From: a virus
Virus record (IMG/VR): IMGVR_UViG_3300014720_003043
Span: 1 to 35,802 of that record
Length of the DNA stretch: 35,802 nt
Direction: 5' to 3' (one strand)
The position numbers and the translations under genes are program-made. The notes beneath the pieces were generated by a model that was not told the origin of the DNA, ran no database searches, and was given only the letters and a program-made list of their open reading frames with translations. This document shows positions 1-22,073 of this stretch, one piece after another. Positions within the stretch are counted from its first letter, which is position 1; each line of letters begins with the position of its first letter.

Positions 1-208
1 ACACTAACCTCAACTCAAACCCCAACTCCCACTACTTCAGTCACCCCCACACTAACCTCAACTCAAACCCCAACTCCCACTACTTCAGTCACCCCCACAC
101 TAACCTCAACTCAAACCCCAACTACCACTACTTCAGTCACCCCCACACTAACCTCAACTCAAACCCCAACTCCCACCACTTCAGTCACCCCCACACTAAC
201 CTCAACTC
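1..208 (+). repeat. 48-bp tandem repeat, 4.3 copies
   Basis: Copies start at 1, 49, 97, 145 and 193 (the last is partial). Copies 1 and 2 are identical as read. Copy 3 changes one Pro codon to Thr (ctcccact to ctaccact). Copy 4 has a synonymous act-to-acc change. The unit is in frame and encodes 16 residues rich in Thr, Pro and Ser. The array continues past the left edge, so the real copy number is unknown. Confidence 0.95.
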
Positions 209-678
209 CAACTCCAACCCCTTCATCAACACAACCAATTCAGGGACTTTTCTTTACATTACAGGAAGTTGGTCCTGATGTCGTATTATCAGGAAGTGGA
301 GCGGTGAATCTTTCAAGTTTATCTAGTGGTGGATTTACTACCAGACTAATTACTATTATCGACCCTCTCAATGGGGAATATAACGTTGGTGACGTTGGTG
401 GAGCTGTAGAATTTTTCTCAGGTGTTACTTTGAGTCCATATCCTTCACTCGGAAGTGGTACGGGTGCTAATGCCGATTTGACTCACGGGGACCTTTTTGG
501 AGTAACTAATTTTGGTTTGATGGTTCCGTATCCATATACAGGTGGACTCCTTGATGGTACTGCCACGTTCACTAGTACAACCTTGTCAACTTTAGGGGTT
601 ACAGTACCTGGAGGTCCTTACCAAATTCAATGGGGAGCTTCAGGAGTGTCAGAAACAATTACTTTCGAGGTAATCTAA
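1..678 (+). CDS. Thr/Pro-repeat protein with beta-rich C-terminal domain, 3' part (possible fibre or adhesin)
   Basis: The reading frame is open from base 1, so the 5' end lies outside the window; at least 225 codons are visible. Residues 1-64 (window numbering) are four copies of a 16-residue unit, TLTSTQTPTPTTSVTP, followed by a partial fifth copy and a Thr/Pro/Ser/Gln linker. From about residue 80 (QGLFFTLQEVGPDVVLSG) to the end there is a Gly/Ser/Thr-rich, probably beta-sandwich domain with no cysteines. An internal GTG at 304 could be mistaken for a start, but the repeat is in frame upstream and shows it is not. The architecture (mucin-like stalk plus compact tip) fits a phage fibre or surface protein, but I do not recognise a named family. 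It lies immediately upstream of a glycosyltransferase operon, which makes the Thr/Pro repeat a plausible O-glycosylation substrate; that link is inference. Confidence 0.7.
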   Translation, partial: TLTSTQTPTPTTSVTPTLTSTQTPTPTTSVTPTLTSTQTPTTTTSVTPTLTSTQTPTPTTSVTPTLTSTPTPTPSSTQPIQGLFFTLQEVGPDVVLSGSGAVNLSSLSSGGFTTRLITIIDPLNGEYNVGDVGGAVEFFSGVTLSPYPSLGSGTGANADLTHGDLFGVTNFGLMVPYPYTGGLLDGTATFTSTTLSTLGVTVPGGPYQIQWGASGVSETITFEVI

Positions 679-709
679 AAGTTTTTTTGTTCTTTTTTGG
701 TATTCATAA

Positions 710-740
710 TTTTGAGAAAAATTCTATTTTTTTCTCAAAA
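710..740 (+). terminator. AT-rich perfect hairpin between repeat protein and glycan operon
   Basis: TTTTGAGAAAAA (710-721) and TTTTTCTCAAAA (729-740) are perfect 12-base inverted repeats around a 7-base loop. The stem is weak (mostly A-T) and is not followed by a separate T-run, but T-runs lie before it (682-688, 692-697). It ends 8 bases before the next start codon. It could be a weak terminator or attenuator, or a structure in the leader of the glycosyltransferase mRNA. Confidence 0.45.
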
Positions 741-748
741 CTATGTAA

Positions 749-1996
749 ATGAAGATATTCGTCCAAATCGCAGCTTATCGTGACCCCCAACTTATTCCAA
801 CAATTAAGAACATGTTGGAAAATGCTAAAAGACCAAAAAATTTAAGAGTTGGAATTGCTCGTCAGTTTAGTCCTGAAGATGGATTTGATGACCTCCAAGA
901 ATTCGAAAAAGACAAAAGATTTAGAATCCTAAACATTCCATACCAAGAGGCTGAGGGTGTTTGTTGGGCTCGTAATCTTGTGCAACAATTATATCAGGGT
1001 GAAGAATACACCCTTCAGATTGACTCTCACATGCGTTTTGCCCCTAATTGGGATGATGAGATGATTAAGATGATTAAACAACTTCAGAAAAAAGGACACA
1101 AGAAGCCACTCCTCACGGGTTACGTTTCTTCTTTTGACCCTGACAATGACCCTGCGGGTAGGGTACAAGAGCCATGGAGAATGGCATTCGACCGTTTCAT
1201 CCCTGAAGGCGCGGTGTTCTTTTTACCCGAAACCATTCCTGGTTGGCAAGACTTGAAAGAACCTGTACCCGCTCGTTTCTACTCAGCTCACTATTGTTTT
1301 ACCTTGGGACAATTTTCAACTGAGGTTCAACACAATCCTGAGTACTACTTCCACGGTGAAGAAATTTCAATTGCTGCGAGAGCATACACTTGTGGATACG
1401 ATTTGTTTCACCCACACAAAGTTTTGATTTGGCACGAATACACTCGTAAAGGTAGAACCAAACAATGGGACGACGACAAAAAATGGGTTGATAGAAACAA
1501 CAAGTCTCACCTCCTTAACCGCAAACTATTTGGTATGGATGGTTTAGAGCAAGAAGGTCACGACGGTCCTTATGGATTTGGTTCTGAAAGAAGTCTTCGT
1601 GATTATGAAAAGTACGCGGGTCTTTTGTTTGAAAAACGTGCCGTACAACAATACACACTCGAGAAACATTACCCACCAAATCCTTACAATCATGAAAGTG
1701 AAGAAGAATGGAAGAAACATTTCGCATCTGTATTCAAACATTGTATTGACATCAATTACGGTTCAGTACCCGAGAAAGATTATGATTTTTGGGTTGTTGC
1801 CTTCCATGGACCAAACGATGAGACATTGTTCAGAAAAGATGCCGATAAACACGAAATTGCTCGTATTATGAATGACCCTGATGGTTATGGTAAAGTATGG
1901 AGAGAATTCCAAACCGAAACCAAGCCAACTTATTGGGTTGTATGGCCCTTCTCTGAATCAAAGGGTTGGTGTGAGCGACTCACAGGTACATTGTAG
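749..1996 (+). CDS. GT60-like UDP-GlcNAc:polypeptide GlcNAc transferase
   Basis: The 415-residue protein resembles the Skp1/mucin-type polypeptide N-acetylglucosaminyltransferase family (GT60). The N-terminus MKIFVQIAAYRDPQLIPTI starts a GT-A Rossmann fold. EAEGVCWARN (about 67-76) and GEEYTLQIDSHMRF (84-97) are the family hallmarks, with D92-S-H94 as the metal/nucleotide-binding DxH variant of DXD. Further conserved-looking elements are the FHGEEISIAAR block near residue 200 and the HP/WHEY region that follows. Known members add GlcNAc to hydroxyproline or threonine in proteins. It is the first gene of a run of eight co-directional genes and directly follows a Thr/Pro-rich repeat protein, so a virion protein is a natural candidate acceptor (inference). 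There is no signal peptide or membrane segment, so it should act in the cytoplasm. Confidence 0.8.
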   Translation: MKIFVQIAAYRDPQLIPTIKNMLENAKRPKNLRVGIARQFSPEDGFDDLQEFEKDKRFRILNIPYQEAEGVCWARNLVQQLYQGEEYTLQIDSHMRFAPNWDDEMIKMIKQLQKKGHKKPLLTGYVSSFDPDNDPAGRVQEPWRMAFDRFIPEGAVFFLPETIPGWQDLKEPVPARFYSAHYCFTLGQFSTEVQHNPEYYFHGEEISIAARAYTCGYDLFHPHKVLIWHEYTRKGRTKQWDDDKKWVDRNNKSHLLNRKLFGMDGLEQEGHDGPYGFGSERSLRDYEKYAGLLFEKRAVQQYTLEKHYPPNPYNHESEEEWKKHFASVFKHCIDINYGSVPEKDYDFWVVAFHGPNDETLFRKDADKHEIARIMNDPDGYGKVWREFQTETKPTYWVVWPFSESKGWCERLTGTL

Positions 1997-2000
1997 TTAA

Positions 2001-2699
2001 ATGAATGTATTCAATTTTTTGTATATCAAAACACCAAAGACTGCTTCAGAACTCATAAAAAGGTATCTGAGGCAGTATGGTGAAGCCACGGGATTACAAA
2101 GAAACAGCAATCCTTTGAACCATTATTTTGAAAACAAAAATTTTGGATACTTTACAGAACACATAATGATGACTCCGAAGGTTCTTAAACATTTCTATAA
2201 TTCTAACGATAAAAATTATTCTTCGTTGATTTTGACTTCGATTAGAGAACCCTTACAAAGGATGGTTTCCCATTATTATTTTTCTAATTTGAACCGTCAT
2301 GAAATGGACTTCAATGAGTGGTATTACAATTATCATCATGGGACTTTAAAAAAAGTTAAATTTGGCTGGAAACCTTTTGAAACTTTGGGTGATAGGGAAC
2401 CGGTTCACTTTGACATTGATAATTACCAACTGAACTATATTGGAGTATACAATCCTTTAGATATTTTTTATTTGTATGACTACGTATTCGTTTCAGAAAA
2501 AGTCGAAGAGCACATTACCCTATTTGAAAAGACGTTGGATTTTAAAATTGAAAGATATCAAGGTGACAAACACATAAATCACAATAAAAATTACCCTGAC
2601 TCAATTGAAATTTCTGAGGAAACCGAAAATTTATTCAGGGAAAGAAATCAACGAGACTATGAACTCTATGATTTTGTTAACGAAACTTATTTTGGATAG
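2001..2699 (+). CDS. Sulfotransferase family protein
   Basis: The 232-residue protein has the two PAPS-binding signatures of the sulfotransferase fold. The N-terminal 5'-phosphosulfate loop is KTPKTAS (residues 10-16) after a beta strand, and the 3'-phosphate-binding segment is SIREPLQRMVSHYY (80-93). The closest style is the carbohydrate sulfotransferase family (Sulfotransfer_2-like), in which sulfate is moved from PAPS to a sugar hydroxyl. No membrane anchor is visible, unlike Golgi enzymes. It starts 4 bases after the GlcNAc transferase stop and its TAG overlaps the next GTG start by one base. PAPS would have to come from the host, as no APS kinase or ATP sulfurylase lies in the window. 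The acceptor cannot be told from sequence. Confidence 0.75.
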   Translation: MNVFNFLYIKTPKTASELIKRYLRQYGEATGLQRNSNPLNHYFENKNFGYFTEHIMMTPKVLKHFYNSNDKNYSSLILTSIREPLQRMVSHYYFSNLNRHEMDFNEWYYNYHHGTLKKVKFGWKPFETLGDREPVHFDIDNYQLNYIGVYNPLDIFYLYDYVFVSEKVEEHITLFEKTLDFKIERYQGDKHINHNKNYPDSIEISEETENLFRERNQRDYELYDFVNETYFG

Positions 2700-3637
2700 T
2701 GAAAAAAATAGCATTCCATTCAAATCAATTGGGTATACGTGGTACTGAAGTTGCTATGTACCAATATGCGAAATACAACGAAGAAATCTTAGGTAATAAA
2801 AGTGTTATCGTAAGTTTTCCAAACAGAGACCACGGAGCAATCGAAAAATTTAGAGACCGATTTGAAGTGGTATTAATGGAATGGTGGGAATACGAATCCT
2901 ACTTAACCCAAAACAATTTTGATTATTTGTATCTTATAAAGATGGGAACCAATGATGGATACTGTCTTCAGACAATACCATGTTTAATCCATGCCGTTTT
3001 CAGGTTCAATGACCCCCACGGACACAAATATTTCTACGTGTCTGATTGGTTGGCTAAGGACCAAGGATATGACCCCGAAACTCATTCGCTCCCACATATT
3101 TGTGAAAGATTACCTCAGTCGGAGTATAACTTCAAAGAAAAACATAACATACCTTCAACTGCTCGTGTATTCGGGTGTTATGGTGGTTCAACAGAGTTTA
3201 ACATCGAATCAACCAAGAGAGCCATTCGTAAGGCTGTAGAAGACCACGATGACATCTACTTTATCTTTATGAATATCCAAGAGTTTGCTGACCACCCACA
3301 AATTAAGTTCTTTCCAGGAAATTATGATTTAAAAGAAAAATCTGCGTTTGTGGATGCTTGTGATGCCATGATTCACGCTCGTAGTGGTGGAGAAACATTT
3401 GGTTTGGCTGTGTCTGAATTTGCCCTTTCGAATAAACCCGTCATTACTTATGAGTTGTCAGGGGAAAGAAGTCACTTAGATATTTTGGGTGAAAGAGCCA
3501 TTCTTTATAAAGGGTACGAAGATTTGTTGGACATTTTTAAAAATTTACCTTCTTTTATAAAATACACAGATTATGATTTACCGTATAAACAATTCAGTCC
3601 TGAATTGATTATGAAAAAATTTGAAAAATTACTATGA
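2699..3637 (+). CDS. GT-B fold glycosyltransferase (GT4-like)
   Basis: The 312-residue protein has a GT-B layout. The N-terminal segment KKIAFHSNQLGIRGTEVAMY has the glycine-rich first loop of GT4 enzymes. The C-terminal half contains VFGCYGGSTEFN (the start of the second Rossmann domain, about 157) and DACDAMIHARSGGETFGLAVSE (219-240), the nucleotide-sugar site, with E232 and E240 forming the EX7E pattern. Start is GTG at 2699, giving TAGTG one-base coupling to the sulfotransferase. The stop overlaps the next ATG by 4 bases. The donor and acceptor sugars cannot be assigned. Confidence 0.75.
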   Translation: MKKIAFHSNQLGIRGTEVAMYQYAKYNEEILGNKSVIVSFPNRDHGAIEKFRDRFEVVLMEWWEYESYLTQNNFDYLYLIKMGTNDGYCLQTIPCLIHAVFRFNDPHGHKYFYVSDWLAKDQGYDPETHSLPHICERLPQSEYNFKEKHNIPSTARVFGCYGGSTEFNIESTKRAIRKAVEDHDDIYFIFMNIQEFADHPQIKFFPGNYDLKEKSAFVDACDAMIHARSGGETFGLAVSEFALSNKPVITYELSGERSHLDILGERAILYKGYEDLLDIFKNLPSFIKYTDYDLPYKQFSPELIMKKFEKLL

Positions 3638-4416
3638 GAAAAATTTTAGTTTCAACAATTTCTTTCGTAAATGAAAGGAAACAAGGCTCCGAAATCTACA
3701 CAAGGTTCGCAAAAAGGCTTATTGATGACGTATTGAAAAAGACTCCATGGGATGTCATGGTTTCAACAAATCGTCCTGACCTTTTTGAAGATGTATCAAA
3801 CCCTAACGATAGAGTTTTTATTAAAGAGGATAGATTAGAAAATCACAAGACACATGTCGGGGCATTCAATCAACTTCTCAAGTTCTCGGCAATCAAGGAT
3901 ATTGATTCAAAATACGACTATGTCCTATACATGGACTGTGATGCTGGTTTTACAGAGGAAGTGAATATAGAAGATGTTGAACGTATGATTGACCATTGGG
4001 AAAGTTTGGGTTATGATATGGTTGCTTTAAGAACTGACGCAACATACGATTGGGCAGAAAAGGAGTTTAAAGAAACAACTGATTTTAACAGTTGGCCAAA
4101 ACCACTGTTCAATGCGAAATTTTTATTTTATGGAATCCACCCTGAGTGGAGTGGTGCGAAACTACCCTCCGAGCACGTATTCTTGGTTAAGAACAACGAA
4201 CGATTAGTTGAAATGGCAAGACACTTCGAAAATTTTTGTACTCAGTTTGAAACACAAGATGTGAACCATCCAATAACTTACGATATGGAAGCCTTCGAAA
4301 TTGGTGTATCAGCTCATATGGCGGGAATCAACATGGGTGAAATGGGTTGGGGAAATCAAATACAAATCCTCAAAGTTGGATTCAACGCGAACAATTGGGA
4401 AAAAGTTAAGATTTAA
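3634..4416 (+). CDS. GT-A-like glycosyltransferase with DCD motif
   Basis: The 260-residue protein has YVLYMDCDAGF with a DXD-type motif D101-C-D103 after a beta strand, as in GT-A enzymes. Further features are a WPKPLFNAKFLFYGIHPEWSG stretch, a SEHVFLVKNNERL segment and a late YDMEAFEIG motif that could hold the catalytic acid. The arrangement recalls retaining GT-A families such as GT6, but the resemblance is loose and I would not name the family. It overlaps the preceding gene by 4 bases and the next one by 1 base (TAATG), so translation is likely coupled within the operon. The product is predicted soluble. Confidence 0.6.
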   Translation: MRKILVSTISFVNERKQGSEIYTRFAKRLIDDVLKKTPWDVMVSTNRPDLFEDVSNPNDRVFIKEDRLENHKTHVGAFNQLLKFSAIKDIDSKYDYVLYMDCDAGFTEEVNIEDVERMIDHWESLGYDMVALRTDATYDWAEKEFKETTDFNSWPKPLFNAKFLFYGIHPEWSGAKLPSEHVFLVKNNERLVEMARHFENFCTQFETQDVNHPITYDMEAFEIGVSAHMAGINMGEMGWGNQIQILKVGFNANNWEKVKI

Positions 4417-5063
4417 TGTATCGTTCATTAGTTTACAATAGATTAAAAGAGTTTGGATTCAATCCAATCGTATCAATTGATGGTGGTGCTTGTCATGGTG
4501 AATGGAGCGCTTCAATACGAGGGACTTTCCCCACAACCACTATAATGGGTGTTGACGCCAATGATTGGAACAAAAATGGAAGTTTCCCACATGTAAACAT
4601 CGGTGAAGTTCAGGTCCTGTCCGACCAAGATGGTAAAGAAGTTATTTTCTATAAGAAAGTAGAGGGTCACTGTACTGGGGATTCTTTGTTCAGAGAAAAC
4701 ACCCTTCACTATGAAGGTGACCGATTAGTCGAGGAAAGAAGAGTGTCAGTCACTTTAAAAACGCTTTGCGGAAAACATGGAATCCAAAAAATTGATTTAT
4801 TAAAATTAGACACCCAAGGGTCGGAAATTATGATAATGAACGGATTGGGTGACATGTTGAACGATGTTGAATTTATTGAAATCGAATGTTCTTTGGTTGA
4901 ATGGAACATTGGTGGATGTATGATAGGGGATGTAATTGAGTACTTACGTGATAAGTTTGACATTTATGAAATCTTAGAGTTTCATAGACTCAACAATTTG
5001 GACTTGATTCAAGTTGATATCCTTTTCCAAAATAAAAAATCAAATATTAAAAAACCGATATGA
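4416..5063 (+). CDS. FkbM family SAM-dependent methyltransferase
   Basis: The 215-residue protein has the FkbM pattern. VSIDGGACHGEWS (19-31) is the SAM-binding motif I, GVDAND (45-50) holds the acidic residue for the ribose, and LLKLDTQGSE (128-137) is the characteristic FkbM segment, followed by IEIE. FkbM enzymes O-methylate hydroxyls in polyketides and very often in surface sugars. In this operon a sugar O-methyltransferase role is the likely one. The TGA stop overlaps the next ATG (ATGA). The low-complexity Lys/Ile C-terminus is probably not structured. Confidence 0.8.
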   Translation: MYRSLVYNRLKEFGFNPIVSIDGGACHGEWSASIRGTFPTTTIMGVDANDWNKNGSFPHVNIGEVQVLSDQDGKEVIFYKKVEGHCTGDSLFRENTLHYEGDRLVEERRVSVTLKTLCGKHGIQKIDLLKLDTQGSEIMIMNGLGDMLNDVEFIEIECSLVEWNIGGCMIGDVIEYLRDKFDIYEILEFHRLNNLDLIQVDILFQNKKSNIKKPI

Positions 5064-5962
5064 AAAAGGTAAGAATATCGGCGAATTGGGACACCTCTGA
5101 AAATCTCACCAAAAGACTGTTGTATCAATTCAAGACAGATGAAATGGATACATCCAACATAGAATTTGTTTTTGATGATTCATACGATGTGATAGTATTT
5201 TTTAATCACATTAACTTACCAATCAAACAGGGGTCTCGAGTTTTTGTTTTCCCACATGAACCTACTTGGGCGGGTTCTCATCAACTGAATTTTCCGTCGA
5301 ATCAAAACATCACAGTTTTAGGATTTGATAAGAAATTTTATAATCCATCTGATGTTTGTGTTGAATCTCCCGCACACACCTATTACGGAGGTAGAGGTCC
5401 TTGGATGGACAAGGAGGAGGATTGGAATTACAAGAGATTGATTGATATCACTCCCGTCAAAACAAAAAATATTTCTTCGGTAATAACTAAACTAAACTCA
5501 AACGATATTAATCCTGAAGGTTGTTCCTATAAAAGTCGTCACGACCTTAATGAATTTTTAATCAAGAACGCACCGTTTGTCGATTTTTATGCCGGTTGGG
5601 ATTTAAAGTTGGAACCCGAGAAAAAACATGCGGTTGAGTCTTATAGATTTAGTATCGCGTTAGAGAACCAATTCACCAAGAATTGGATTACCGAAAAGTT
5701 TTACGACTCAATCCTGTACAACACGGTGCCAATTTATTTTGGATGCAGTAATCTTGAAGAGTTGTATCCTGAGTGTGGGTATTTTGTTTTTGAAGATGTT
5801 ACAAACCACAAACAATGTTTGGAGTTAATTAACCATATTGAAACCAACGCCGAATCTCTATATGAAAAAATGTTACCTGAGGTAATAAAAATTAAACAAA
5901 AATATTTCAACAACTACAATTTGTTGAAAAAGATTAATAATTTATGTAATGATGGAATTTGA
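5060..5962 (+). CDS. GT10 alpha-1,3/1,4-fucosyltransferase-like protein
   Basis: The 300-residue protein has the donor-binding core of GT10 fucosyltransferases at about 195-229: YRFSIALENQ, then WITEKFYDS, then NTVPIYFG. The ENxx...TEKxxD...VPxYxG pattern is diagnostic for GDP-fucose binding. Upstream, VFVFPHEPTW (61-70) matches the acceptor-domain segment seen in bacterial GT10 proteins. GT10 enzymes move L-fucose from GDP-fucose to GlcNAc or glucose residues. A GlcNAc transferase opens the same operon, so a fucosylated GlcNAc-containing glycan is a coherent guess. No GDP-fucose synthesis genes are present, so the donor must come from the host or from elsewhere in the phage genome. Confidence 0.8.
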   Translation: MKKVRISANWDTSENLTKRLLYQFKTDEMDTSNIEFVFDDSYDVIVFFNHINLPIKQGSRVFVFPHEPTWAGSHQLNFPSNQNITVLGFDKKFYNPSDVCVESPAHTYYGGRGPWMDKEEDWNYKRLIDITPVKTKNISSVITKLNSNDINPEGCSYKSRHDLNEFLIKNAPFVDFYAGWDLKLEPEKKHAVESYRFSIALENQFTKNWITEKFYDSILYNTVPIYFGCSNLEELYPECGYFVFEDVTNHKQCLELINHIETNAESLYEKMLPEVIKIKQKYFNNYNLLKKINNLCNDGI

Positions 5963-6581
5963 AGATAAAGTTTACAAAAAATGTAACTTGGAACACAATG
6001 ATAGTATTTCAACTTACAACGGTTGGGCCGCCCAACAAAACTATAAAGCATTTGAAGTTTTTCATAACTTTATTCAAAGTGTAAAACCAAAAAGAATTTT
6101 GGAAATTGGGACTTCCATCGGTGGGTTTACGCAGTTTCTAAAATATACCTGTGATAATTTAGGTTTAGATACTCACATTATTTCTTTGGACATTCATGAA
6201 AAACATTGGTACTCGGACATAATTGAGATGGGTGTTGACCTCAGACTTGAAAACATTTTTCTTAACAATTTTGAAGACGTACCTCAGGAATATAAAGATT
6301 TTATTCAAGGTGACGGTGTTACAATTGTTCTTTGTGATGGTGGTGATAAAGTTAGAGAATTCAATCTTTTATCAAAATTTTTAAAAAGAGGTGACTATAT
6401 TTTGGGACATGATTACGCATTCAACAGACAAGTTTTCGAAGAATCTGTTTACCAAAAGGTTTGGAACTGGCACGAATTGTCTGAGTCAGATATTCTTAAC
6501 TGTTCCCAAGAAAATAATTTAGTGGATTACAATCGTGAGATTTTTGAGTCGGTTGTATGGGTTTGTAAAAAGAAATATTGA
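5949..6581 (+). CDS. Class I SAM methyltransferase (CmcI/cephalosporin-hydroxylase-like fold)
   Basis: The 210-residue protein has motif I as RILEIGTSIGGF (49-60), an acidic motif II as SLDIH (79-83), VLCDGGDK (127-134), and GDYILGHDYAFN (148-159). The last two resemble metal-dependent methyltransferases of the CmcI / Methyltransf_24 group. The first codons are ATGATG at 5949, so the start could be either one. It overlaps the fucosyltransferase by 14 bases. In context it probably methylates a sugar in the same glycan, but hydroxyl, amine or carboxyl targets cannot be told apart. Confidence 0.7.
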   Translation: MMEFEDKVYKKCNLEHNDSISTYNGWAAQQNYKAFEVFHNFIQSVKPKRILEIGTSIGGFTQFLKYTCDNLGLDTHIISLDIHEKHWYSDIIEMGVDLRLENIFLNNFEDVPQEYKDFIQGDGVTIVLCDGGDKVREFNLLSKFLKRGDYILGHDYAFNRQVFEESVYQKVWNWHELSESDILNCSQENNLVDYNREIFESVVWVCKKKY

Positions 6582-6582
6582 T

Positions 6583-8250
6583 ATGTCAGTTACATTAGTT
6601 ACAGGATTATGGAATATAAAAAGAGATTCACTCACTGAGGGTTGGTCCCGTAGTTTTAACCACTACTTAGAAAAGTTCGACCAACTTCTTAAGGTTGAAA
6701 ATAATATGATTATTTTTGGTGACCCTGAGTTAGAATCCTTCGTTTTTGAGAGAAGAAGCAGAGAAAATACTCAGTTTATACCTCGTTCTCAAGATTGGTT
6801 CAAAAACGATATCTACGATAAAATTCAAAAAATAAGAACCAACCCTTCATGGTATGGACAATCAGGTTGGTTACCTGAATCAACACAGGCTAAATTGGAG
6901 ATGTATAACCCTCTAGTTATGTCAAAAATGTTTTTGTTGAATGACGCTCGTATTATGGACCAATTTAATTCTCAATTTATGTATTGGATTGACGCGGGTA
7001 TAACTAATACGGTTCATTGGGGATATTTTACACATGACAAAATACAAAATAAGTTTGATAAACTTTTCTCCAAGTTTGGGTTTATTGCTTTCCCGTATAA
7101 AGCGGAAACTGAAATTCATGGTTTTACCTATCCTAAGATTAATCAGTTCGCGGGTTCTGATGTAAAATTAGTTTGTCGTGGAGGATTGTTTGGTGGTAGT
7201 AAAAATGTTATAGGTGACGTAAATGGAATTTATTATAACGTACTTCAATCTACATTGAATGAAGGATACATGGGAACTGAGGAATCTCTTTTTAGTATCA
7301 TGCTATACAGACATTCAGATATGTTCGATTACTATGAAATTGAGGGAAACGGTCTTATTGGAAAGTTTTGTGAAGATTTAAAAAATGACAAACACGTTCT
7401 CAAAAATGTTAATGGTGTTTCGAACTACAACAAGTTGAGTATTGATAACACGGCAATTTATGTAATTACCTTCAACAGTCCAAATCAGTTCGAAACCTTG
7501 TTGAAGTCCATGGAAATTTATGACCGTAACTTCATAGATAAACCAAAAAAGTTTTTATTAGATAATTCGTCGGATTTATCAACCACTGAGAAATACGCCG
7601 AGCTTTGTTTGCAATATGGATACAAACATATCAAAAAAGACAATCTCGGAATCTGTGGTGGGAGACAATGGATAGCAGAACATGCCCAAGAAAATGACTT
7701 TGATTTTTATTGGTTCTTTGAAGATGACATGTTCTTCTACAAAGGACAGGACCAAGTTTGTAAAAACGGTTTTAACAGACATGTTTCCGACATCTACACA
7801 AAATCTCTCGAAATTACCAAAAACAATTCTTTGGATTTTATTAAATTAAACTACACCGAATTCTACGGTGATAATGGAGTTCAATGGTCTTGGTATAACG
7901 TTCCTCAACACAAGAGAGAAGAGTATTGGCCCGAGAAACCAACACTACCCGTACAGGGACTTGACCCCAATGCTCCGAGAACAAAATTTAACCAAATGTT
8001 TTCATACAAAGGAATACCTTTCGCTATAGGAGAGGTATATTACTGTAACTGGCCTCAAGTGGTGTCCAAGTATGGTAATGAAAAAATGTTCCTAACCACA
8101 AAGTGGGAAAGACCTTTCGAGCAAACTTGGATGAGTTATATTTTTCAAGAAACTAAAGCGGGGACTATTAAACCTGGTTTAATGATGATTACACCCACTG
8201 AACATGACAGATTTGAGTTTTACGAAGCGGGGTTAAGAAAAGAGTCCTAA
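6583..8250 (+). CDS. HtrL/YibB-like domain fused to GT-A glycosyltransferase
   Basis: I chose ATG 6583, one base after the previous TGA and beginning MSVTLVTGLWNI; a longer frame from 6535 would add 16 residues overlapping the upstream gene. The N-terminal half (about 1-280) matches the HtrL/YibB/WlaTC family pattern: VTLVTGLWNI, WLPESTQAKLEMYNPLVMSK split by short gaps, MYWIDAGI, and an LFGG segment. This family is found in LPS and capsule loci. The C-terminal half (about 289-555) is a GT2-like GT-A domain starting AIYVITFNSPNQFETLLKSM, with FFEDDM placing the acidic motif at E380-D381-D382. With 555 residues it is about twice the size of a single-domain HtrL protein. It is the last gene of the glycan operon. 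Confidence 0.65.
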   Translation: MSVTLVTGLWNIKRDSLTEGWSRSFNHYLEKFDQLLKVENNMIIFGDPELESFVFERRSRENTQFIPRSQDWFKNDIYDKIQKIRTNPSWYGQSGWLPESTQAKLEMYNPLVMSKMFLLNDARIMDQFNSQFMYWIDAGITNTVHWGYFTHDKIQNKFDKLFSKFGFIAFPYKAETEIHGFTYPKINQFAGSDVKLVCRGGLFGGSKNVIGDVNGIYYNVLQSTLNEGYMGTEESLFSIMLYRHSDMFDYYEIEGNGLIGKFCEDLKNDKHVLKNVNGVSNYNKLSIDNTAIYVITFNSPNQFETLLKSMEIYDRNFIDKPKKFLLDNSSDLSTTEKYAELCLQYGYKHIKKDNLGICGGRQWIAEHAQENDFDFYWFFEDDMFFYKGQDQVCKNGFNRHVSDIYTKSLEITKNNSLDFIKLNYTEFYGDNGVQWSWYNVPQHKREEYWPEKPTLPVQGLDPNAPRTKFNQMFSYKGIPFAIGEVYYCNWPQVVSKYGNEKMFLTTKWERPFEQTWMSYIFQETKAGTIKPGLMMITPTEHDRFEFYEAGLRKES

Positions 8251-8268: not shown

Positions 8269-8646
8269 ATGGAATTTTTTATCAGAAAGAATGCTACACT
8301 ACCTGTTTTGAAAATGCAGGTTGTACAAGATGGTAGAACGGGTTACTTGAACTTGATGGAGTCTTTAGAGAGTGCCACCATCTATTTTTCTATGATTAAT
8401 ACCGCTACAGGTATTCCTAAAATTGTTTCCGCGCCCTGTTATATTGTTAGTTTAATACTTGCCGATGGTGCTCCCACAGAGTATTACATCTATTACAGAT
8501 TTACTTCAAGGGACACAAATACACCCGGACGATATACGGGACAATTCCTAATCAAAAACAATGACGGTAACCTTATTGTTCCCATACGAGAAGACCTCTA
8601 TATCAATGTTGAGGACAGTTTCATTTCAGAAACTGCTTGTTGTTAA
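8269..8646 (+). CDS. Small beta-rich protein, possible baseplate/fibre Ig-like domain
   Basis: The 125-residue protein is rich in predicted strands: ATIYFSMINTATGIPKI, YYIYYRFTSRDTN and GRYTGQFLIKN, followed by DGNLIVPIREDLYINVED. The G-x-Y-x-G-x-F ... DG ... P pattern recalls the N-terminal domain of phage upper-baseplate proteins (BppU-like), which joins receptor-binding parts to the baseplate. I give this only as a fold impression. It sits between the glycan operon and the DNA polymerase, with its own possible promoter just before the start. There is no signal peptide, and it ends in Cys-Cys. Confidence 0.5.
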   Translation: MEFFIRKNATLPVLKMQVVQDGRTGYLNLMESLESATIYFSMINTATGIPKIVSAPCYIVSLILADGAPTEYYIYYRFTSRDTNTPGRYTGQFLIKNNDGNLIVPIREDLYINVEDSFISETACC

Positions 8647-13275: not shown

Positions 13276-14799
13276 CTATCTTAAGTTGTACAGAAGGTCA
13301 TTTTTGTCAAAAACATATTCTCCAAGAACAATTTCAGGGTTGTTTTTGAATATAACAACCCGTCCACCTTTTACAAAAACCATCCAATCAACTTTGTAAA
13401 TGTCAATTTCACCAGGTTTAGTAACAACAATTTTGTCACCCTCTTCTTTGAGTTCATCGAATCCTTTCACTTGTGCGGTTAAGTTCTGTCCTTGGAAGTG
13501 AATTTTCAAATCAATTTTTTGTACGTCATCAATCTCTTTACCAGCTCCCGCAGTACCAATAACCGCAGAACCTGGTAAATTTTTCAGAATCTTTTCCTTA
13601 GCGGTTGCCTCTCTACGTGCTCCGATTTTGTCTTTTTCGTTTAGAGTTGACATAATATTTCTGAATGTCACACTCTTGGGGTCAAAAATACGGTTTGAGT
13701 ATTTCTCGATAAAACGACACATGCGTTTCATTTCTACAACTTGTTCAGCCGGAGTTTTGTCGTTGAAATCAATCAAGGGTTCTCCCATGTTTCCCAAAAC
13801 TAAATTGAGGTCCCGAACCATAATACAAAACACGGAATAGTTTGTGTTCATGTAGTTAATAATGGAACGACCCTCTTTTTCCAAATTGTAGACACCGGGA
13901 ATTTCTCCATTGTCACGTTGGTGGTAGTATTTGTTGGCAAACTCTCTTTGGTGAACTTTGATGATGGTGTTCTTGTAGTTGTTTCGTGCGGTCTTGTTGA
14001 GGGTGAACAACATACGGTAGAATTCTACCTGTTCACGAGAACAAGGGTTTGATTTCCCTTCCATGAGTAACTGTCCCATTTGTTTGGTTTCTAATAGTTG
14101 TGTTTCAGTTTTCATTTTGTATAACCCCTCAACAAATTCCCAATTGACCACAGTCCAAAAGTTTTTGATGTACTCGTCTCTTTTGTTTCTGTATTTGAGG
14201 TAATACGCATGTTCCCACAAATCTAAGCCTAAAAGTGGATATCCGCCGCCTTCTATAACATTCATCAGCGGATTATCTTGGTTTGGGGTTGACATTATCT
14301 TAAGAGTGTCCTTGTTTGTTAGAACCAACCACACCCAACCTGAACCAAATCTTTCTTTCGCTATTTTTTCAAATTCCTGTTTGAACTTGATGAATGTCCC
14401 AAAGTCTTTTCTGATTTTGCGTTCTAACTCTCTACCAACTTTTTTTGGTGTTGGGGACAACATGTTCCAAAAAAGTGCGTGGTTGAAGGCACCCCCCGCG
14501 TTGTCTCTTACGGCTTTGGGATACTTGGAAATACTTTTAATAATTTTTTCCAAGTCATCACTTCCCTTTCGTTTTGCCAAAAGTCCGTTGAGTTTATCAA
14601 CGTAACCTTTGTAGTGTTTATTGTAGTGAACGTTCATTGTCTCGGGGTCAATGAATCGTTTCAAGGCTGAATAGGCGTACGGGAGTTTTTCTATCCCGAT
14701 TTTTTTCATTTCTTTGATAAGAACTTTTACCTCTTCTTTTTTCTGTTCGTGAATGATTCTTTTTTCAAGATTCTCCACGGATTCTTGTAGATGTTCCAT
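13276..14799 (-). CDS. Fe/Mn superoxide dismutase fused to a probable PD-(D/E)XK-like domain
   Basis: Residues about 35-230 of this 507-residue protein are a full Fe/Mn superoxide dismutase. The N-terminal helix carries VHYNKHYKGYVDKLN, and the four expected metal ligands are H58, H107 (FNHALFW), D193 and H197 (GLDLWEHAYYLKYRNKR). GSGWVWLVL and NQDNPLM are present; AGGAFNH plus NQD places it nearer the Mn-type. A helical region follows (about 250-395). The C-terminal 110 residues include QKIDLKIHFQGQNLTAQVKG: D430 and Q443-V-K445 give the D-x(12)-QxK spacing of PD-(D/E)XK nuclease cores, then KVDWMVFVKGGRVVIF supplies further strands. Enzymes of about 200 residues are normal for SODs, so more than half of this protein is extra. 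Enzymatic activity of either part is inferred from motifs. Confidence 0.85.
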   Translation of the reverse strand: MEHLQESVENLEKRIIHEQKKEEVKVLIKEMKKIGIEKLPYAYSALKRFIDPETMNVHYNKHYKGYVDKLNGLLAKRKGSDDLEKIIKSISKYPKAVRDNAGGAFNHALFWNMLSPTPKKVGRELERKIRKDFGTFIKFKQEFEKIAKERFGSGWVWLVLTNKDTLKIMSTPNQDNPLMNVIEGGGYPLLGLDLWEHAYYLKYRNKRDEYIKNFWTVVNWEFVEGLYKMKTETQLLETKQMGQLLMEGKSNPCSREQVEFYRMLFTLNKTARNNYKNTIIKVHQREFANKYYHQRDNGEIPGVYNLEKEGRSIINYMNTNYSVFCIMVRDLNLVLGNMGEPLIDFNDKTPAEQVVEMKRMCRFIEKYSNRIFDPKSVTFRNIMSTLNEKDKIGARREATAKEKILKNLPGSAVIGTAGAGKEIDDVQKIDLKIHFQGQNLTAQVKGFDELKEEGDKIVVTKPGEIDIYKVDWMVFVKGGRVVIFKNNPEIVLGEYVFDKNDLLYNLR

Positions 14800-18863: not shown

Positions 18864-21800
18864 ATGTTTTTTCAAGTAACAACACAAGCTAATCAGAAGG
18901 TTTTTGTATCACCTGGTGTCTATACATCCGAAACTGATTTGTCATTTGTAGCACAAAGCGTTGGTGTAACGACTTTGGGTTTGGTTGGTGAAACTCTATA
19001 CGGTCCGGCTTTCGAACCTATATTCATAACTAACTACGATGAATTTCAGAACTTTTTTGGTGGTGTCAGCCCTGAAAAATTTATAGGAACTCAGATTCCT
19101 AAATACGAAGCGGCATACATCGCAAAGGCCTACCTTCAGCAATCAAATCAGTTGTTTGTAACGAGAGTCTTGGGACTTTCAGGTTATGATGCAGGTCCTT
19201 CGTGGAGTATAACCGCCATCGCTAACGTCGATGGTGAGACTGTCGGTATTGATGCGGGTGTTGCCCAAACATTTTGGTCGGCAACTTTTACAGGTACTTC
19301 AACAGGTACTTCTGTGACTTTCACTTCGGCTCTACCTTCAGTGATTTCTAACTCACTCACCACACAATACACACTTTACGACGGTTCCACATCTTCTTAT
19401 TCGAGAGATATCCAAGCGTTCATGAACTCTATTTCGGGTAATACCGCATTGTCGGCAACAACCGCTCAGTTCTACGGAATGCCAACACAAGTAGGTTACG
19501 ACCAATTTAATGGACAATACTCTGTCTTGAGTAATAATTTTGGTGTTGATAGTCTTGACCCTCAGGCTAACGATTTAACTGACAGTGTTAATGACCCTTG
19601 GTATTACGCAACATTTAACGTAACAGGTAGTTCTTGTGATTATTCGGGTTATGCTTGGAACTACGTTGTTTCCAATTACTACACAGGGGCATCAAACTCG
19701 TTTTCGGGAACTGTATCAGGTAACGTATATTTTTATAGTGGTGAATCATTTACTGAGTACTGTAATTTAGTTGTTGGAACACTCCGTTCGAGAGGTGTCT
19801 CTGAATACACACCAAATGACCACGGTCCTTTGTATCAAGTTACAGGTTTAACAGATTTACAAATTGTATGTACAGGACCTTACTCAGGTATAAGTCAAAA
19901 TCCGTTCGCAACATTCCAAGTGAGTGGTGTTACTAAAACGGGAACAGACTTTGATTTTGATGTGTCTTTCGGAGCTAGTAACGCTAACTACATCACAAAA
20001 GTTCTTGGAATTACTAACTTTGGTAAGTCTCAATTCGAAGTACCTGTTTATGTTGAGGAATCTTACCCCGGTCTTTTGACTTACGGATATAATAAGGGTT
20101 ACATTAGAGGTTTGAATTGTGATTTCATCGCACTTCCAGAAGCTCGTGACACAACTTCAACAACATCAATAGCATGGAACCTCCAACAATACCAAAGTCC
20201 AAGAACACCATATGTTGTTTCTGAACTTCGAGGTAATAAGGTATACAAACTTTTCAGATTTGTATCAATTTCTGACGGTGATTTAGCTAACACACAAATA
20301 AAAATTTCAATTACTAACGTATCTTTTAGTAACCAAACATTTGATGTAATGGTTAGAGATTTCTTCGACACAGATGCTAACCCAATTGTTCTCGAAAAAT
20401 ACACTAACTGTACTTTAGACCCAGCTACTAATAGTTTCGTTGGGAAAAAGATTGGTTCATTTGATGGTGAATACCCATTGAACTCGGCATATGTAATGAT
20501 TGAAATGGCTGATGAAGCGCCATTTGACGCTCTTCCTTGTGGTTTTTACGGTCTCGATGAGAGAATTTATGAATCGGCAACTAACCCTTCTCCTTTCCCA
20601 ATCATCAAGAACAGATACTTCTACCCAGGAGAAACTCTTTACGACCCACCTTTCGGTACAACCGCCGGTGGTTCCAACGTTGTGACTGCTTCAGGGGATA
20701 ATGTTAGAAGAAGTTACTTAGGAATTTCATCATTTTTTGGTATCGACTCTGACCTTCTTCAATACAAGGGAAGAAAGAATCCCACAGTCAATTGGTATGA
20801 CGCTACAGATTCTGAACCATGGAATTACCAGACCCAAGGTTTCCACTTTGACTCGGGAGCTACAGTTGTTACTATTGGTAACGCATACGTTACAAGTGGT
20901 ACACCAGCATTTGTATGTGGTATCGCAGACTTCAGAGCAGAACCTCAGACACAAGCTAACCCTTACTACTTCTTGTATTCTCGTAAATTCACGTTCATGT
21001 TCCAAGGAGGATTTGACGGTTGGGACATATATCGTGAGTTCAGAACAAATACTGATAGGTTCCAATTGGGAGCATCAGGTTACCTTCAAGGGGCTTATGT
21101 TTCTCAAAGATACCCAACCGCTTCGGGGGATGGTACCTTCAAGAGAATCGTAGTTGCTGACAACACTCAGGATTTCGCTAACACTGACTACTACGCATAC
21201 CTTCTTGGTATCTTGTCTTTCAACAACCCTGAATCAACAAACATCAACGTGTTCGCAACAGGAAGTATTGATTATATCAATAACAACAACCTTTGTGAGG
21301 CGGCTATTGACATGGTGACAAATCAGAGAGCGGATTCGGTTTACATCGTTACAACTCCTGACTACAACATGTACACTCCTGATGGAAGTTCACAGTACGA
21401 AATCATCTACCCACAAGAGGCAGTTGACAATCTTGACGACACGGCAATTGATTCTTCGTACACCGCAACTTACTACCCATGGATTCTTGAAAGAGACACC
21501 GTAAACAACACCCAAATTTACTTACCACCAACAGGACAGGTTTGTAGAAACTTGGCACTCACTGACAACATTTCTTTCCCATGGTTCGCATCGGCGGGTT
21601 ACACAAGAGGTCTTGTTAATTCAGTAAAAGCAAGATTGAGACTTACTCAAGAAGATAGAGACATTCTTTACCAAGGAAGAATTAACCCAATCGCAACCTT
21701 CTCTGATGTTGGTACGGTAATTTGGGGTAACAAAACCCTTCAGGTCAGAGACACCGCTCTCAACAGATTGAACGTAAGAAGATTGTTGTTACAAGCTCGT

Positions 21801-22073
21801 AAGTTGATTTCAGCTGTCGCAGTTAGATTGTTGTTCGAACAGAACGATGAAATTGTGAGACAACAATTCTTGGATTCGGTTAATCCAATCCTCGACTCAA
21901 TCAGAAGAGACAGAGGTCTTTATGACTTCCGTGTAACTGTCGCTTCTACACCTGAAGATTTGGATAGAAACACATTAACAGGTAAAATCTACCTAAAACC
22001 AACGAAGGCACTAGAATTCATCGATATCGAATTCTTGATTACTCCAACAGGAGCTTCGTTTGAGAATATTTAA
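18864..22073 (+). CDS. Tail sheath protein (T4 gp18-like), enlarged
   Basis: The 1069-residue protein starts with the sheath N-terminal pattern VFVSPGVYTSETDLSFVAQS, then GLVGETLYGPAFEP and YDEFQNFFGG. It ends with the strongly conserved contractile-sheath domain: ATGSIDYINNNNLCEAAIDM, FPWFASAGYTRGLV, LRLTQEDRDILYQGRINPIA, VIWGNKTLQ, NVRRLLLQARKLI, and a final YDFRVTV ... GKIYLKPTKALEFIDIEF strand pair. T4 gp18 is 659 residues. The extra ~400 residues lie in the middle, rich in Ser/Thr/Gly/Tyr, and probably form protruding domains on the sheath surface. It is transcribed from its own promoter region and followed by a hairpin. Confidence 0.92.
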   Translation: MFFQVTTQANQKVFVSPGVYTSETDLSFVAQSVGVTTLGLVGETLYGPAFEPIFITNYDEFQNFFGGVSPEKFIGTQIPKYEAAYIAKAYLQQSNQLFVTRVLGLSGYDAGPSWSITAIANVDGETVGIDAGVAQTFWSATFTGTSTGTSVTFTSALPSVISNSLTTQYTLYDGSTSSYSRDIQAFMNSISGNTALSATTAQFYGMPTQVGYDQFNGQYSVLSNNFGVDSLDPQANDLTDSVNDPWYYATFNVTGSSCDYSGYAWNYVVSNYYTGASNSFSGTVSGNVYFYSGESFTEYCNLVVGTLRSRGVSEYTPNDHGPLYQVTGLTDLQIVCTGPYSGISQNPFATFQVSGVTKTGTDFDFDVSFGASNANYITKVLGITNFGKSQFEVPVYVEESYPGLLTYGYNKGYIRGLNCDFIALPEARDTTSTTSIAWNLQQYQSPRTPYVVSELRGNKVYKLFRFVSISDGDLANTQIKISITNVSFSNQTFDVMVRDFFDTDANPIVLEKYTNCTLDPATNSFVGKKIGSFDGEYPLNSAYVMIEMADEAPFDALPCGFYGLDERIYESATNPSPFPIIKNRYFYPGETLYDPPFGTTAGGSNVVTASGDNVRRSYLGISSFFGIDSDLLQYKGRKNPTVNWYDATDSEPWNYQTQGFHFDSGATVVTIGNAYVTSGTPAFVCGIADFRAEPQTQANPYYFLYSRKFTFMFQGGFDGWDIYREFRTNTDRFQLGASGYLQGAYVSQRYPTASGDGTFKRIVVADNTQDFANTDYYAYLLGILSFNNPESTNINVFATGSIDYINNNNLCEAAIDMVTNQRADSVYIVTTPDYNMYTPDGSSQYEIIYPQEAVDNLDDTAIDSSYTATYYPWILERDTVNNTQIYLPPTGQVCRNLALTDNISFPWFASAGYTRGLVNSVKARLRLTQEDRDILYQGRINPIATFSDVGTVIWGNKTLQVRDTALNRLNVRRLLLQARKLISAVAVRLLFEQNDEIVRQQFLDSVNPILDSIRRDRGLYDFRVTVASTPEDLDRNTLTGKIYLKPTKALEFIDIEFLITPTGASFENI

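Follow-up and report, generated by a model that had tools for sequence, protein, structure and literature searches.

To our knowledge, virion glycosylation has been described in just a handful of phages. In mycobacteriophages, virion structural proteins are glycosylated by phage-encoded glycosyltransferases, with the glycans placed on the C-termini of capsid and tail tube proteins according to a later summary (Freeman et al. 2023, via PMC12619734). For the Xanthomonas phage XacN1, the available text of the report describes at least two glycoproteins found by proteomics, and its authors suggest the two annotated glycosyltransferases of the phage, including the GT60 enzyme ORF334, as the cause (PMC5852040). 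Here we describe a related locus in an environmental virus, IMG/VR record IMGVR_UViG_3300014720_003043, whose entire 35.8-kb contig (35,802 nucleotides) is the window of this study. A threonine/proline (Thr/Pro)-rich open reading frame (ORF) is followed by a GT60 gene, a variable set of sugar-modifying genes and an HtrL gene, and the probable product of this locus is a mucin-type O-glycan carried by Thr/Pro-rich virion proteins. The window also carries genes for tail sheath, tail tube and baseplate as well as a helicase and a family-B DNA polymerase, and so belongs to a contractile-tailed phage. The bacterial viruses that appear to have such a locus are very large and mostly from freshwater.

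The XacN1 locus (ORF334/ORF330) resembles that of the window in its GT60 and HtrL proteins (48% and 40% identical), which lie around a variable interior, and in the numerous Thr/Pro-rich proteins of the genome; unlike in the window, a carbamoyltransferase replaces the sulfotransferase and GT10 genes, and the Thr/Pro genes are not adjacent. In its available text, the XacN1 paper neither treats the genes as a locus nor mentions the HtrL partner or Thr/Pro proteins (PMC5852040), and the literature searched contained no paper linking GT60 to phage mucin-like proteins. In contrast to the mycobacteriophage systems, the candidate acceptors here are Thr/Pro stretches of adhesins, the presumed initiator is a GT60 enzyme and the decorating genes are swappable.

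The GT60 family includes the polypeptide alpha-N-acetylglucosamine (GlcNAc) transferases of Trypanosoma cruzi and Dictyostelium, of which Dictyostelium Gnt1 modifies a hydroxyproline of Skp1 in the cytoplasm. Eukaryotic mucin-type initiation, by GT60 and by the GT27 polypeptide N-acetylgalactosamine (ppGalNAc) transferases, shares with the window system Thr/Pro-rich acceptors, a DxH motif and a predicted GT-A fold. However, the eukaryotic enzymes other than Gnt1 work in the secretory pathway, whereas the window system would modify virion proteins inside the bacterial cytoplasm, and a single viral operon would supply the genes for sulfate, methyl and other caps. O-antigen and capsule loci of bacteria likewise have conserved ends and, between them, a hypervariable set of glycosyl-, methyl-, sulfo-, carbamoyl- and pyruvyltransferase genes, but the window locus is without membrane machinery and is tied to a polypeptide initiator. 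Moraphages, like the window phages, are described as large and aquatic with several core glycosyltransferases, and the main text of that paper contains no description of a GT60-HtrL locus (PMC12619734). The window lineage was considered as a member of the moraphages and rejected, as lysyl-tRNA ligase, reported there for most moraphages, is missing from six lineage records. Phage virion glycosylation is already known, and a mucin-type phage system with swappable cassettes appears to be new.

Conserved frame and hypervariable interior

A search of environmental viral contigs with the GT60 protein yielded 375 relatives, of which 80 were kept, and loci with GT60 at least 93% identical were removed as duplicates. 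In the window lineage, one or more Thr/Pro genes come first, then GT60 with one to seven variable genes behind it, and after these HtrL, a gene for a 125-aa protein and DNA polymerase. The order GT60-interior-HtrL recurs in 31/31 scorable deduplicated loci of this lineage and in 10/10 of the XacN1 lineage (GT60 43-49% and HtrL 37-42% identical), which is more than chance would give. A second set, collected independently through the DNA polymerase, keeps to this frame wherever upstream sequence suffices, with two possible exceptions (L105, L127). Because almost no GT60-less locus was found in it where upstream sequence suffices, that set could not be used as a negative set, and polymerase searches from SCTP-2 and RaK2 for GT60-negative environmental relatives returned zero and two loci, respectively.

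Between the conserved ends of 40 deduplicated loci lie 121 interior genes, which fall into 44 similarity families and make up 28 different architectures. Glycosyltransferases of types GT2, GT7, GT10, GT11, GT25, GT34 and PLOD are present, together with FkbM and further methyltransferases, two sulfotransferase families, carbamoyltransferases and one pyruvyltransferase. Functional slots are swapped even between the window and its nearest relative (L004), whose GT60, HtrL and DNA polymerase are 97%, 95% and 98% identical to those of the window. The two align except for two blocks ending at gene boundaries, where the relative has a Sulfotransfer_3 protein in the sulfotransferase slot and a different FkbM protein in the FkbM slot. 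A membrane-like segment, marginal in strength, occurs in one of the 121 interior proteins. No clear membrane protein, and thus no flippase, polymerase, lipid-carrier transferase or anchor, was found among the interior genes, which fits cytoplasmic action on protein and disfavours polysaccharide export.

HtrL probably starts at ATG 6583, because this start removes the 47-base overlap created by the listed GTG 6535 and gives 555 aa, in keeping with the 531-560 aa of most relatives. The predicted structure is a tandem GT-A enzyme (predicted local distance difference test score, pLDDT, 88; predicted template modelling score, pTM, 0.55), with LH3, LARGE1 and K4 chondroitin polymerase as its best PDB matches, and the protein matches PF09612 (E 2e-17). 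In L073 (14521-19239), a relative of the following 125-aa protein is fused to the front of a Thr/Pro-rich protein with DUF285, which spans at least 1573 residues.

Presumed initiating enzyme and Thr/Pro-rich proteins

The GT60 protein scores 231.5 bits against PF11397 (cut-off 21), and its DSH motif (D92 S93 H94) is invariant, along with R96 and F97, across 25 diverse relatives. The predicted structure (pLDDT 90) has a GT-A fold with a DxD/DxH metal motif and is nearest, at modest TM-score, to polypeptide transferases; ranks 1-31 of the PDB search are all polypeptide GalNAc-transferases. A sequence search of solved structures gave chance-level matches only. The enzyme is likely a polypeptide N-acetylhexosamine (HexNAc) transferase.

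Genes were scored as Thr/Pro-rich at 40% or more Thr+Pro in 60 residues, and as neighbours if they lay up to three genes to either side of GT60 or up to two genes past HtrL. A neighbour of this kind is present in 29/31 deduplicated loci of the window lineage and 23/31 of a third viral lineage, against 5-6% (three genes) or 10-12% (eight genes) at random gene positions in three whole genomes. Four loci (L037, L043, L048, L071) have lost the upstream Thr/Pro gene by rearrangement and carry a Thr/Pro-rich ORF directly after HtrL. The association extends to whole genomes: a TPTPTP-coding pattern was detected in 12/12 GT60-bearing large phage records, six of them of the XacN1 lineage, versus 0/8 related jumbo phages without PF11397. 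Counted by ORF, Thr/Pro-rich genes number 16 in XacN1, 13 in G001 and 7 in G002, and none was found in the GT60-negative XbC2, SCTP-2 (400 of 440 kb scanned) and XaC1. In the third lineage the pattern occurs in 16/18 records, the other two being fragments of 58 and 22 kb, and neighbour-gene-anchored contigs with a Thr/Pro gene but no nearby GT60 carry GT60 elsewhere in 8/17 cases, including 3/3 longer than 150 kb. GT60 in this lineage (L326-L347, L450-L505) usually lies one or two genes before a protein of about 535 aa containing Thr/Pro stretches and Cys, mostly without HtrL or cassette, as a minimal form of the system.

The Thr/Pro ORF of the window, whose 5' end is missing at the contig edge, carries 4.5 copies of a 48-bp tandem repeat (1-218, 97% matches) encoding 16-residue units, reaches 72% Thr+Pro within 60 residues, and then has a domain of about 148 aa without Pfam match. 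In relatives, Thr/Pro stretches separate folded domains, including lectin-like Laminin_G_3 domains and DUF285 repeats, and one protein has an apparent serine-protease domain, judged by eye. Their layout is that of surface adhesins borne on mucin-like stalks, which would be carried on the virion; in XacN1, the Thr/Pro-rich ORF369, ORF370 and ORF372 lie immediately beyond the tail sheath. Another part of XacN1 (124-133 kb; L233, 41049-50000) encodes six tandem Thr/Pro-rich hypothetical proteins, ORF232-237, which are clear glycoprotein candidates.

From these features we infer the acceptor residue, the sugars, the order of steps and the biological purpose. GT60 would use a host nucleotide sugar as donor and attach HexNAc to Thr, or less likely hydroxyproline, in the Thr-Pro stretches between the folded domains of surface adhesins, and the repeat TPTPTTSVTPTLTSTQ is a candidate peptide acceptor for the window enzyme. 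The interior genes and the double-domain HtrL would then extend and cap the first sugar in the host cytoplasm, before assembly, the window interior contributing two glycosyltransferases, a GT10 fucosyltransferase, two methyltransferases and a sulfotransferase. Because exchange works on single slots of the interior, every phage may have its own glycotype, like the serotypes that arise from O-antigen loci.

Alternative explanations

The enzymes may instead remodel the surface polysaccharide of the host, for receptor masking or superinfection exclusion, with the Thr/Pro proteins being flexible adhesin linkers that are neighbours by chance. The interior enzyme kinds are indeed those of O-antigen and capsule loci, and the lectin-like domains of the Thr/Pro proteins could bind surface sugars. 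However, the interior is without a clear membrane protein, the initiator fold resembles polypeptide transferases, GT60 tracks Thr/Pro proteins genome-wide, and many third-lineage phages have GT60 and a Thr/Pro gene without HtrL or cassette. We therefore consider this alternative, which a preliminary description of the window made without database searches had kept beside its own proposal, to be unlikely. Protein glycosylation could also be real with hydroxyproline as acceptor, as for Gnt1 on Skp1, an activity known within GT60, and 2-oxoglutarate (2OG)-Fe(II) oxygenases (PF13640) occur in 5/6 window-lineage records. Such oxygenases are common in T4-like phages anyway, and none was found in seven records from the other two lineages, where GT60 and Thr/Pro-rich proteins are nonetheless retained; the absence of the oxygenases there favours Thr and makes hydroxyproline a very unlikely acceptor. 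Hypermodification of phage DNA bases, of the glucosyl-hydroxymethylcytosine (HMC) or TET/JBP-associated glycosyltransferase (TAGT) type, is highly improbable. It draws on weak matches of the C-terminal part of HtrL-GT to TAGT (E 0.001) and to phrog_842, a beta-glucosyl-HMC-alpha-glucosyltransferase (1e-5), and on a thymidylate-synthase family gene, of the family to which nucleotide hydroxymethylases also belong, in 9/11 records. However, it predicts no association with Thr/Pro proteins, DNA glucosyltransferase folds are not the best match of GT60, and the two inspected thymidylate-synthase proteins keep the Asn of the PFN motif, which we take to mark an ordinary thymidylate synthase, although a dUMP hydroxymethylase is still compatible with it.

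Several observations weigh against a mucin-type O-glycan on Thr/Pro-rich virion proteins. TM-scores of GT60 to ppGalNAc-transferases are only about 0.45-0.52 for most matches, the C-terminal third of the model seems not to superpose on them, and several interior gene assignments are weak; peptide use by GT60 is predicted, and the Thr/Pro proteins are putative glycoproteins. The XacN1 glycoproteins are given without identities in the available text (PMC5852040). A Thr/Pro neighbour occurs in only 2/10 XacN1-lineage loci (p 0.34), loci within a lineage share ancestry so that p-values overstate independence, the contrast of 12/12 versus 0/8 may reflect few gains, and some Thr/Pro-bearing fragments show no GT60.

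The preliminary description had proposed a GT60-initiated O-glycan on the neighbouring Thr/Pro protein, and had regarded operons commonly lacking such a neighbour as evidence to the contrary. Co-occurrence holds by adjacency in two lineages and at genome level, but not by adjacency in the XacN1 lineage. A Thr/Pro neighbour is indeed missing from 8/10 XacN1-lineage loci and from some of those in the third lineage; still, 6/6 XacN1-lineage records tested encode Thr/Pro proteins elsewhere, and 8/17 third-lineage records carry GT60 at another place on the contig. Adjacency, genome-level co-occurrence, the predicted fold and the XacN1 glycoproteins (PMC5852040) support the core of the proposal. A single neighbouring fibre as target is abandoned, since GT60-bearing genomes hold 7-16 Thr/Pro-rich genes, and the one sulfated, fucosylated and methylated glycan narrows to the version of the window contig, because relatives exchange interior genes. 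A role in masking the virion or tuning host binding, as the description suggested, may be the purpose of the glycan.

Bacterial relatives and possible hosts

Bacterial contigs contributed 67 deduplicated GT60 loci; 25 Thr/Pro-rich ORFs lie no further than 6 kb from GT60, and the stretch from 6 to 10 kb has none. The chromosome of Jiulongibacter sediminis (Bacteroidota; L249, 7945-15148) carries two GT60 genes, a carbamoyltransferase and an FkbM-HtrL fusion adjoining a Thr/Pro-rich protein, and the N-terminus of that protein appears Tat-like by eye. In Saprospiraceae contigs, a GT60-HtrL pair shares about 70% and 62% identity with that of the window, which hints at Bacteroidota hosts; some of the Saprospiraceae and other metagenome-assembled contigs with GT60 may themselves be phage. 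In Burkholderiaceae (Trinickia, Paraburkholderia and Cupriavidus; L262, L268-L271, L278, L282, L290), GT60 is followed by an opposite-strand block encoding a Thr/Pro-stretch protein with up to 100% Thr+Pro in 60 residues.

Gene layout of the window

The nine ORFs first described in 1-8250, with eight co-directional genes after the Thr/Pro-rich ORF, were all recovered in place (Table 1), and the gaps and overlaps of 1-14 bases between the eight genes hold with the HtrL start at ATG 6583 but not with GTG 6535. Profile evidence from Pfam and PHROG is good to moderate for seven of the eight enzymes and weak for the GT2-like one; an NCBIfam search adds nothing past FkbM, YibB and weak methyltransferase matches.

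Table 1. Features of the proposed glycosylation locus and its distal neighbour in the window
Feature	Coordinates	Strand	Evidence or remark
Thr/Pro-rich (mucin-like) protein, 3' part	1..678	+	open at contig edge; presumed acceptor
GT60-type polypeptide HexNAc transferase (likely)	749..1996	+	PF11397 E 2.6e-68; presumed initiator
Sulfotransferase, variable slot	2001..2699	+	Sulfotransfer_2 E 6e-6
Glycosyltransferase, GT group 1-like, variable slot	2699..3637	+	PF00534 E 3e-4, below curated cut-off; phrog_2170 2e-7
Glycosyltransferase, GT2-like (weak), variable slot	3634..4416	+	PF00535 E 0.012; phrog_3317 0.0017
FkbM methyltransferase, variable slot	4416..5063	+	PF05050 E 2e-9
GT10 fucosyltransferase-like, variable slot	5060..5962	+	PF00852 E 1.3e-11
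Second methyltransferase, FtsJ/CmcI rhamnosyl O-methyltransferase-like, variable slot	5949..6581	+	PF01728 E 1e-6; PF04989 6e-5
HtrL (YibB-like) plus second GT-A domain, conserved distal end	6583..8250	+	PF09612 E 2e-17
125-aa conserved small protein, possible virion adaptor	8269..8646	+	synteny; fusion in L073

Between the Thr/Pro gene and GT60 (679-748), there are a terminator-like GGAGGG/CCCTCC hairpin and an AT-rich leader (TATTTTTnnnnAAAA), and both are found at the same place in many relatives, including L128, L131, L112 and L122. The glycosylation genes are therefore probably transcribed as a unit of their own. A Bacteroidota-type promoter (TAnnTTTG) upstream of the window GT60 was rejected as a general feature, being not clearly enriched in relatives (6/32 versus 3.2 expected).

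Elsewhere on the window, the minus-strand gene at 13276-14799, in the phage structural region, encodes a protein of 507 aa in which residues 36-224 form an iron/manganese superoxide dismutase domain (PF02777 E 2e-39; PF00081 6e-21) and the C-terminus has a long additional portion; most relatives have a related protein. The tail sheath (18864-22073) is unusually long at 1069 aa, and when isolates are compared by this protein, a Microcystis phage and Flavobacterium phages are among the nearest.

Biological significance

Hundreds of environmental contigs carry the GT60 system, as do culturable jumbo phages; XacN1 and RAS14 are examples of GT60-bearing phages. On balance, we lean towards a viral glycocalyx in several large-phage lineages, in which the mucin-like stalks of adhesins would carry glycotypes that switch by exchange of the decorating genes lying between GT60 and HtrL, as a counterpart of serotype switching, with the same module in Bacteroidota chromosomes. 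If true, this would explain why these phages carry genes for sulfation, carbamoylation and fucosylation, and would provide a compact soluble enzyme set to make mucin-like glycopeptides. It would also suggest that phage surfaces diversify as bacterial serotypes do.

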